Below are positions 21,371-32,565 of a DNA stretch of 64,000 nt, one piece after another. The DNA is from Mesorhizobium sp. NZP2298 (GTDB lineage Bacteria > Pseudomonadota > Alphaproteobacteria > Rhizobiales > Rhizobiaceae), in assembly GCF_013170825.1 (NCBI RefSeq), contig NZ_CP033365.1, positions 1,674,001 through 1,738,000 of the forward strand, in the 5' to 3' direction. A program made the position numbers and the translations under genes. Numbering within the stretch: the stretch's first letter is position 1; each line of letters starts with the position of its first letter. The notes beneath the pieces are model-generated. The model worked only from the letters and a program-made list of their open reading frames with translations, was not told the DNA's origin and made no database searches.

Positions 21371-22051
21371 CTAGGCCGCGACTGCCGGCTGGCTCCATCG
21401 AGCAGCGAGCAGCCGGTAGGGGATGAGCGCGACCACGGCAATGATCAATTTCACCGAGAGATCGCCCAGCGCCCAGGAAACCCAGCGCATGGCCTCGATG
21501 TGGAAGACGCCCATCAGGGGCGCCGTTTCGAGCGCAAAGCTATCATTGGGGCCAGCAAAGGCGAAGGCGGCCGAGAATGCGACGGTGAAGAAGACCATCG
21601 TGTCGAACACCGATCCGACCAGCGTGCCGACGATCGGCGCCCGCCACCAGCTCTGCCTGCGCAGCCGGTTGAACACGGTCACGTCAAGCAATTGCGCGGA
21701 CAGGAATGCCGCGCCTGAAGCGGCGGCGATGCGCGCCAGCCGGTCAGCGGCGGTCTCGAATTCGATCAGGCCATGGCGGAACAGGAAGGGCGGGACGAGG
21801 ATCGAGCAGACCACCGCTGTCATGAAGCCGACAAAGACGATCCGGCGCGCCACGGCAGGCCCGTAGCGGCGGTTGGCGAGGTCGGTGACGAGGAACGAGA
21901 AGGGATAGGTGAAAGCGCCCCAGGTAAGCAGGTCCGCCAGCGACAGGCCGCCGATCTGGCCCTGCATCGGGAACTGCACGAGGATGTTCGACGCCACGAC
22001 GACAAGCGCCATGGCGGCCACGAAGGGCAAATATCGCGAGAAGGATGTCAT
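21371..22051 (-). CDS. Queuosine-precursor (preQ0/preQ1) transporter, VUT/YhhQ family
   Basis: Integral membrane protein of 226 residues with about six hydrophobic spans, matching the COG1738 VUT family that imports queuosine precursors. Typical features are the early TWGAFTYPFSFLVTDLANRRYGP motif (cited in part: FTYPFSFLVTDLANR) and the acidic/aromatic SVFDTMVFF segment. The ATG at 22051 is preceded by AGGA seven bases upstream; upstream in-frame ATGs would add a non-hydrophobic leader. The start codon sits in the tail of a candidate preQ1-I aptamer, consistent with ligand control. A spermidine-synthase-like gene follows four bases after its stop. Confidence 0.9.
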   Translation of the reverse strand: MTSFSRYLPFVAAMALVVVASNILVQFPMQGQIGGLSLADLLTWGAFTYPFSFLVTDLANRRYGPAVARRIVFVGFMTAVVCSILVPPFLFRHGLIEFETAADRLARIAAASGAAFLSAQLLDVTVFNRLRRQSWWRAPIVGTLVGSVFDTMVFFTVAFSAAFAFAGPNDSFALETAPLMGVFHIEAMRWVSWALGDLSVKLIIAVVALIPYRLLAARWSQPAVAA

Positions 22052-22078
22052 TTTTTTATCCTGGGTAATGGAACCAGC
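22047..22078 (-). promoter_or_regulatory. Candidate preQ1-I-type riboswitch covering the start of the VUT gene
   Basis: Reading the minus strand from 22077: CTGG, loop TTCCATTAC, CCAG, then GATAAAAAAATGA. This mirrors preQ1-I aptamers: stem, GGTTC, an ACCC ending whose first C would bind the ligand, and an A-rich tail beginning ATAAAAAA. In B. subtilis the tail CUA pairs with a loop UAG; here the equivalent tail triplet is the start codon ATG and the loop has CAT, so pairing is preserved. The loop (9 nt) is about three shorter than in the known B. subtilis and Thermoanaerobacter aptamers, which is the main doubt. The Shine-Dalgarno AGGA overlaps the stem. Confidence 0.55.
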
Positions 22079-22116: not shown

Positions 22117-22157
22117 GAGCATCGGATTGTCGAACCTTGCGGATCCATCCGATGCTC
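22117..22157. repeat. 11-bp inverted repeat in the rpmB-VUT gap
   Basis: GAGCATCGGAT (22117-22127) and ATCCGATGCTC (22147-22157) are perfect complements around a 19-base spacer. A related GAGCATC occurs at 22080. It could be the rpmB terminator stem, an operator, or a dispersed repeat; no T-run supports intrinsic termination. Confidence 0.5.
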
Positions 22158-22205: not shown

Positions 22206-22502
22206 TTAGGCAGCGACCTGTTCGGCCAGCTTCTTGGCGATCTGCTTCTTCAGCAGGCGCGCGCGCTGCGACAGTTCCTTGACGTCGGCCTTGGCCAGGA
22301 AAGCGTCGAGACCGCCGCGATGTTCGACCGAACGCAGCGCATTGGCCGAGATGCGCAGGCGCACATTCTGGTTCAGTGCTTCCGAAATCAGCGTCACATT
22401 GACGAGGTTCGGCAGGAAGCGACGCTTGGTCTTGTTGTTGGCGTGGCTCACATTGTTGCCGGTCTGGACTGCCTTGGCAGTGAGTTCGCAGGTGCGGGAC
22501 AT
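22206..22502 (-). CDS. rpmB: 50S ribosomal protein L28
   Basis: Large-subunit ribosomal protein of 98 residues. The N-terminus [24 protein letters not shown] (cited in part: [16 protein letters not shown]) and KRRFLPNL are hallmark L28 sequences, including the usual single rhizobial Cys. It stands alone, as in other alphaproteobacteria, with a 260-base gap on its upstream side to the DUF3108 gene. Confidence 0.97.
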
Positions 22503-32306: not shown

Positions 32307-32341
32307 AATAAAAAACCGGCATTGCCTTCGCAAAGCCGGTT
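32307..32341 (-). terminator. Intrinsic terminator of the metX leader (attenuator)
   Basis: On minus, AACCGGC (32341-32335) pairs with GCCGGTT (32320-32314) around a 14-base loop, followed by TTTTATT. It begins 14 bases after the SAM-II aptamer and about 75 bases before metX, which is the arrangement of a transcriptional attenuator. Confidence 0.85.
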
Positions 32342-32354
32342 ACGTCACGCAAAC

Positions 32355-32410
32355 GGCCCTTTAGCGAATTGTTTAACGTGGCTGCAAGCCGACCGGCCAA
32401 ATCACCACGG
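32355..32410 (-). promoter_or_regulatory. SAM-II riboswitch (metA motif) controlling metX-metW
   Basis: The minus strand reads CCGTGGTGATTTGGCC, then GGTCGGCTTGCAGCCACG, then TTAAACAATTCGCTAAAGGGCC. These are the hallmark pieces of the SAM-II pseudoknot found upstream of metA/metX and metZ in alphaproteobacteria, including the conserved GCTTGCAGCCACGTTAAA and CGCTAAAG. An intrinsic terminator follows, so SAM binding should stop transcription before metX. Confidence 0.95.
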
Positions 32411-32565
32411 AACTGTCATTGTCCTTCTAGAACTCGCCCGCCTCGCCGTCAATGCCGGAGGCTGTGCCGGCGCTGGCCCCACCGCCGCCTCTCGACATTG
32501 CCGTCCATGGCTTGTATTTCCGCTGCGGCCTCCGGATGGAGGCATTTTCGACGGATTTTGCAAAA

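Follow-up and report, generated by a model that had tools for sequence, protein, structure and literature searches.

A candidate class I preQ1 riboswitch close to type III whose pseudoknot would hold the start codon of a queuosine precursor transporter gene in Rhizobiaceae

The closest described relative of the element analysed here lies in the leader of E. coli yhhQ, where a class I type III preQ1 riboswitch has been solved by crystallography (PDB 8fza; accessible part of PMC10622847). This leader (L219:4177-4211) reads UUGGG UUCCCUCAC CCCAA ... AAAAAGG. Type III was reportedly defined by McCown et al. 2014. In the portion of PMC10622847 drawn on here, the range of type III lies almost exclusively within the gamma-proteobacteria, and a P1 of 5-6 bp is described for the three solved class I types, which is a description and not a definition. 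Bacteria differ in the type of preQ1 riboswitch reported to precede yhhQ or its transporter family (PMC5372724, in part), and the translational preQ1 riboswitches reviewed in the available sections of PMC11625349 act on the Shine-Dalgarno sequence; the same sections mention an E. coli reporter strain deficient in preQ1. Within the accessible text of the open-access literature, including PMC11625349, PMC5372724, PMC8752633, PMC12519234, PMC3766115, PMC1273637, PMC10907184 and PMC13273304, no preQ1 riboswitch is reported from Rhizobiaceae and none pairs the start codon in its pseudoknot.

Several other known systems resemble the element in part. The class I type II riboswitches of B. subtilis queC and T. 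tengcongensis share with it the class fold and the A-tract and likewise have A-C at the specificity base, whereas their P2 is formed from other tail bases and they act transcriptionally or by partial occlusion of the Shine-Dalgarno sequence. Class I type I (C. antarcticum) has the same UU after the P1 5' strand, but at the specificity base it has U-C instead of the A-C seen here, and it stacks two ligands; the loop here is of 8 nt (both types as presented in the available sections of PMC11625349). According to the same sections, preQ1-II and preQ1-III share the ligand class, and class II also the transporter genes, yet both are HLout-type pseudoknots. In V. vulnificus add, too, AUG is made inaccessible, but there a sequester hairpin hides Shine-Dalgarno and AUG together (PMC10907184, in part), whereas here AUG would itself be a strand of the proposed ligand-binding pseudoknot.

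The element lies in the window, that is, the whole 64,000-nucleotide stretch of Mesorhizobium sp. NZP2298 DNA that was analysed. On the minus strand, 22077-22048 reads CUGG-UUC-CAU-UA-C-CCAG-GAU-AAAAAA-AUG-A, where AUG is the start codon of a VUT gene (Table 1; position 3 of the element is the first C of CUGG and position 32 the first base of codon 2). The loop UUCCAUUA occupies 22073-22066 and is followed by C at 22065, and the tail GAUAAAAAA spans 22060-22052. A sequence-only reading had proposed here a preQ1-I-like pseudoknot with the start codon as a strand, describing a CTGG/CCAG stem, a loop, a tail running into the ATG of VUT and a Shine-Dalgarno AGGA that touches the stem. All of this is present as described, with AGGA overlapping the P1 3' strand, and the loop CAU that was said to pair with AUG is its exact and full complement. 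P1 has only four Watson-Crick pairs, as against the 5-6 bp of the solved class I types, and the flanking bases (G or A versus G) give no extension.

Table 1. Genes and predicted RNA features at the VUT locus; all coordinates refer to the window.
Feature	Position	Strand	Basis or remark
rpmB (ribosomal protein L28), upstream of VUT	22206..22502	minus	PF00830
P1 5' strand CUGG, positions 3-6	22074..22077	minus	CUGG/CCAG in 208/209 carriers, CCGG/CCGG in one; two G required by search
L1 UUC, positions 7-9	22071..22073	minus	aligned to E. coli U6, U7, C8; U7 of the element required by search
P2 5' strand CAU, positions 10-12, anti-start-codon	22068..22070	minus	209/209 family carriers, not required
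L2 UA, positions 13-14	22066..22067	minus	A14 aligned to E. coli A13
Putative specificity base C15	22065	minus	aligned to E. coli type III; C required by family search
P1 3' strand CCAG	22061..22064	minus	
Shine-Dalgarno-like AGGA, half in P1, half in linker	22059..22062	minus	sequence; linker GAU in 183/209
L3, linker GAU plus A6 tract	22052..22060	minus	A6 in 203/209 (5-9 A allowed)
Position 28, last A of L3	22052	minus	aligned to E. coli A27, which contacts preQ1 (PMC10622847, in part)
VUT start codon AUG, P2 3' strand, positions 29-31	22049..22051	minus	AUG in 209/209, NUG allowed
First base of codon 2, position 32	22048	minus	covaries with loop positions 8-9
VUT / queuosine precursor transporter gene, 226 aa	21371..22051	minus	PF02592, E 6.5e-28; TIGR00697

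Alignment with the E. coli leader places the floor pair G5-C15 on G6-C16 of the element and U6, U7 and C8 on U7, U8 and C9; the P2 pairs C9:G30, C10:G29 and U11:A28 fall on C10:G31, A11:U30 and U12:A29, and A13, the specificity base C14 and the ligand-contacting A27 on A14, C15 and A28. By this alignment all class I pocket bases are present (G-C floor, U after P1, specificity C, A of L3), and the contacts of the E. coli pocket would carry over to the element in the window. The two RNAs are further alike in loop length (UUCC(A)U-N-A-C here, UUCC(C)U-C-A-C there), downstream gene family, H-type pseudoknot plan, A-rich L3 and the placing of an initiation signal in P2. That signal differs: the 3' strand of P2 is the start codon AUG here and the Shine-Dalgarno AGG there, the tail reads AAUG instead of AAGG, and a single P2 pair, C:G in E. 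coli, is A:U here, which turns an anti-Shine-Dalgarno into an anti-start-codon. In addition, P1 is of 4 bp, the Shine-Dalgarno sequence sits in P1 and the linker, some family members (the UGG and UGC forms described below) have a 4-bp P2 reaching into codon 2, and the range differs from that of type III, the element having been found in one family only in the searches made.

The loop, which the sequence-only reading had put at about three bases shorter than in characterised aptamers, is indeed shorter than the B. subtilis loop (class I type II loops have 9-11 nt, against 8 here), but equals that of E. coli type III; since type III, and not the type II of B. subtilis, is the closest relative, the loop is not too short. 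Type III is marked by a short loop in which UU follows P1 and A-C stands at the specificity base, and the element in the window has all of this. Among the family carriers introduced below UU follows P1 in 157/209 and UG in 52/209, and of the 204 with a two-base L2, 192 have A ahead of the C. The position before yhhQ/VUT is also shared, with 209 carriers found by locus selection and, among the matches listed, 114/118 found by pattern alone. By sequence, the class I order and pairing (P1, L1, P2, L2 with the specificity C, A-rich L3) recur in 209/217 leaders, whereas the tail AAGG, with its anti-SD:SD P2, is absent and replaced by CAU:AUG in 209/209. Since descriptions of type III place AAGG in P2 whereas the tail here is AAUG, the element is, judged on its sequence, not a member of type III but stands beside it within class I.

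A search with Rfam RF00522, as the sequence-only reading had suggested, matched nothing in the element at E up to 10. The 251-base stretch with the E. coli yhhQ type III leader equally gave no match in Rfam release 15 at E up to 10, and we therefore set the negative result aside as no test; RF00522 may be blind to type III, of which this is one example only. Neither preQ1-II (RF01054) nor the preQ1-III class (presumably RF02680) had an Rfam match here.

How widely the element occurs was assessed in VUT leaders. VUT was found in 145/146 genomes of the genus, and leaders were taken from 90 of these 145; in the family it was found in 143/151 genomes, with leaders from 130 of the 143, of which two were also in the genus set. 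The resulting 218 leaders include one with an assembly gap at the site (L044), which leaves 217 scorable. The family search reached to 260 bases upstream and called for GGU, an L2 two or three bases long, a C ahead of the 3' strand of the stem, three or more of the four P1 pairs, a linker of 2-8, A5-A9 and NUG; CAU and AUG were not required. Under these settings, 209 of the 217 leaders carry the element, and every carrier has both CAU (209/209) and AUG (209/209). Six leaders are without it (L132, L136, L157, L160, L374, L376), and two from small family genomes (L178 and L375) have a decayed element before VUT, ctggtgctcaaaaaATG / ctggttccattaccaagattaagaATG, which suggests loss of regulation in reduced genomes. 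Among the genus leaders the block is near-constant within diverged flanks, and conservation rises at the first stem base and drops right after AUG, in a profile that covers carriers only and is partly picked by pattern. Elsewhere in the class, VUT relatives were found in 121/289 genomes, one of them the host's own, and the element was seen in 0/40 VUT leaders examined from the other 120. The element in VUT leaders is no chance occurrence, since 209/217 family leaders carry it within diverged flanks and none of the 40 from elsewhere in the class does. This disposes of coincidence, which had been offered as the alternative to a new variant, and the comparison as a whole, together with the covariation of the pair 9:32 described below, supports the proposed pseudoknot. 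As for the orthologous leaders in which complementarity might have been lost, stem, CAU, ligand C and A-tract are kept, whereas the GGTTC given as part of the motif is not universal, being replaced by GGTGG or GGTGC in 52/209.

An RNA model built from 28 element variants matched 223/247 family genomes, in 100/109 genera, at E<=0.01; four of these matches are weak (E 0.001-0.01; G155, G193, G237, G266), and each matched family genome has a single match except G146, G150, G234 and G630. The filters of the model can miss variants, as in G246, which is unmatched although its leader L121 carries one. The host's own genome scored 52.5 bits and the best of the other 278 class genomes 26.4 bits (E 3.2e-4), and at E up to 0.5 the model found something in 152/279 class genomes. 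For the 14 stretches from outside the family that were fetched (L342-L355), no VUT match lies within ~3 kb. Two of them were taken as chance: L344 has CUGG/CCAG and A6-AUG, yet its loop has neither U7 nor CAU, and L349, on the reverse strand near base 1500, has UUGG-UUC-CAU ... CCAG with G at position 15 and a short A-tract (21.7 bits). In a scan of 299 genomes of the phylum with a UUC-type pattern of free linker length, nine genomes were hit, all of the same genus, with 0/5 other family genomes and 0/285 outside the family. A pattern scan of public genomes that left loop positions 7-9 and base 32 free returned at least 118 loci and, among the matches listed, the element stands before VUT in 114/118; of the remaining four, L241 and L314 were taken for chance matches and L278 and L330 end before VUT would show. 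Among the matches listed, carriers include Mesorhizobium, Rhizobium, Sinorhizobium, Agrobacterium, Neorhizobium, Brucella, Bartonella, Aurantimonas and Aureimonas.

The pairing across the start codon can be followed through loop positions 7-9, which read UUC in 157 of the 209 family carriers, UGG in 40 and UGC in 12. In the same set the base after AUG is G behind every UGC loop (12/12) and C behind every UGG loop (40/40), and behind UUC loops it is A in 111, C in 30, U in 16 and G in none (n=157). The 114 named loci, among the matches listed, gave UGC-G in 6/6, UGG-C in 56/56 and UUC-G in 0/52. The pairing rule is without exception in these 323 loci (209 family plus 114 among the matches listed, with some species common to both), and it is kept in 258/258 distinct loci of both sets, again with the matches listed and counted before the last 40 leaders were added; this set lacks no fewer than three carriers whose L2 or P1 is unusual (L115, L117, L177), all three of which follow the rule. 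By contrast with its absence behind UUC, G as the first base after AUG is not rare generally, occurring in 108/394 other frames of a crude set.

On a tree of the transporter proteins (set including the matches listed), the loop type changes at least 10 times. Base 32 underwent 32 or more changes among UUC loci, and the 82 UGG and 12 UGC loci show none. We used simulation on this tree because the independent-pairs sign tests had only 3 and 2 starred pairs to work with, too few for a decision (median p 0.25 and 0.5). When base 32 evolved independently of the loop, a mean of 191.8 and a maximum of 236 of the 258 loci abided by the rule, and 0/5000 simulations reached 258. The null is somewhat too simple, since for the next three bases, too, few simulations reached the observed mutual information with loop type (4, 3 and 1 of 1000); those three bases do not follow the pairing rule (150, 161 and 163 of 258). 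In the alignment of the 28 variants, 92.4% of cells are paired versus 23.7-48.2% when slid by 1-3 columns, and the covariation score was reached by 7/500 shuffles. From these comparisons, the predicted P2 is made of 9:32 (G:C or C:G), C10:G31, A11:U30 and U12:A29, and the leader loop covaries with coding sequence across the start codon. In the UUC forms (16/28 variants) 9:32 is unpaired. The start-codon pairs, positions 10-12 with AUG, show no variation, and a GUG or UUG start form of the exact pattern occurs 0 times in 394 family genomes, so that these three pairs lie beyond covariation testing. P1 is nearly invariant, with one compensatory change from U-A to C-G (L177), two wobbles (L248, L297) and one mismatch (L290), and therefore has little covariation support of its own. 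A simple hairpin in the UGG forms (U7:A14, G8:C13) was rejected as an alternative fold; it fails in UUC forms and wherever positions 13-14 vary.

Altogether, we consider it quite probable, on grounds of sequence comparison, that the element belongs to the class I preQ1 riboswitches, with type III as its nearest relative, and acts on translation by gripping the start codon and repressing the importer. Here preQ1 would stack between P1 and P2, where C15, U7 and A28 would read it, and the bound ligand would stabilise P2, locking the loop CAU onto the VUT AUG, with a fourth pair extending into codon 2 in the UGG and UGC forms. P1 and the knot would at the same time cover half of the AGGA Shine-Dalgarno. 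With AUG held in P2 and part of the Shine-Dalgarno covered, the ligand would shut off initiation of the importer when preQ1 is plentiful, a feedback on uptake. In this reading the sequence, its conservation across the family, the covariation of the loop with codon 2, the place at the start codon and the identity of the gene are observed, and preQ1 as the ligand, the atomic contacts and the repression of VUT are inferred.

The UUC and the UGG/UGC forms could be two ways of building the ceiling of the pocket. A14 is present in 155/155 UUC forms and 37/49 UGG/UGC forms of the family set with two-base L2 (n=204), and in 50/52 UUC forms of the named set, among the matches listed, the other two being Bartonella. 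In UUC forms, C9 would be needed for a triple with U12-A29, as in E. coli, and G32, which could pair C9 away, may be absent from them (0/157) for this reason; A14, the counterpart of the E. coli A13 that contacts U11 (PMC10622847, accessible part), would then be fixed too. The UGG/UGC forms have G at position 8 and so lose the U7-A27 contact, which the E. coli riboswitch critically needs; in these G8 forms position 9 would pair with codon 2 and A14 would be relaxed. We lean, with less assurance than for the riboswitch as such, towards a fourth class I subtype whose pocket would be shut by the initiation codon and which would exist in two architectures able to interconvert: a three-pair P2 with UUC in which G32 would be forbidden, and a four-pair P2 with UGG or UGC in which codon 2 would be forced to pair, so that the RNA would dictate part of codon 2 family-wide.

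Aureimonas and a few relatives (L121, L134, L231, L262, L282, L358) form a set apart. Their knot AUG is out of frame with VUT as aligned (for L358 the frame shift was judged by eye), the loops are UGC, and the linkers CCU, CCC or CGACACC leave no AGG Shine-Dalgarno. At these loci the switch may act on a short overlapping upstream frame, with a different expression platform.

At least for the UGG/UGC forms, the same pseudoknot could also serve a different ligand or a broader range of them, such as preQ0, queuine or some other deazapurine. The change from U8 to G8 alters the base that holds the ligand-contacting A27 in E. coli, and YhhQ is able to salvage preQ0 as well as preQ1 (both from the accessible part of PMC10622847); moreover, position 8 of these forms departs from the UU of type III and A14 is relaxed in them. 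Yet the direct contacts (G-C floor, U7, C15, A28) are identical in all forms, and the specificity C and the floor are those of class I, which makes such a ligand unlikely in our view. We give considerably less weight still to a ligand-free translational pseudoknot or thermometer tuning VUT initiation. Such a structure would by itself cover Shine-Dalgarno and AUG, but among carriers the unpaired U7, C15 and A-tract match the helices in conservation (U7 and C15 being partly required by the searches), these conserved unpaired bases coincide with the preQ1 pocket, and the gene is that of a queuosine-precursor transporter.

Readings that do away with the RNA fold fare worse. We reject a DNA operator or protein-binding site over the start codon as most improbable: CTGG..CCAG is an inverted repeat and the conservation has sharp boundaries, but bases 23 positions apart covary by the Watson-Crick rule across the start codon, and the A-tract and AUG lie within the conserved block. 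Least credible of all, and rejected as well, is a conserved upstream peptide-coding stretch instead of an RNA structure; the window has no in-frame stop from the stem to AUG, yet one-base L2 insertions (L115, L117, L152) and changes in linker or A-tract length break the frame while the RNA element is kept.

If the preQ1 riboswitch reading holds, a one-pair change would place the start codon in the grip of a type III-like pocket, the same nucleotides would serve both sensing and initiation, and protein synthesis would be switched off at its very start point. At ~30 nt, the element would rank in size with the smallest riboswitches, and it would be a naturally occurring example of an aptamer that constrains codon 2. 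It would also give a plant-symbiont family and its relatives (Sinorhizobium, Rhizobium, Agrobacterium, Brucella, Bartonella) a preQ1 control point. The natural series of UUC, UGG and UGC forms offers a ready test of how the ceiling of the type III pocket is constructed.

The VUT protein passes the queuosine precursor transporter model TIGR00697 with 107.7 bits (cut-off 50.95) and reaches 123 bits with the narrower model NF008406, under its cut-off of 252. Among families for making and using preQ1, searches for QueC, QueF and Tgt found the QueC family over cut-off at two places in the host genome, QueF at one and Tgt at one. The two QueC family genes over the curated cut-off lie at G000:C1:6917561-6918211 and 7041277-7041876, and there is a weaker third match; one of the two may serve another deazapurine pathway. 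The gene rpmB precedes VUT in 254/258 loci (set including the matches listed), and three of the other four have little upstream sequence. The spacer between rpmB and VUT contains, at 22117-22157 on the minus strand, an inverted repeat (GAGCATCGGAT ... ATCCGATGCTC) that lies in a stretch variable across the genus and is possibly a terminator or processing hairpin. Elsewhere in the window, a SAM-II riboswitch (SAM_alpha, RF00521) lies at 32341-32418 on the minus strand, with 79.2 bits.
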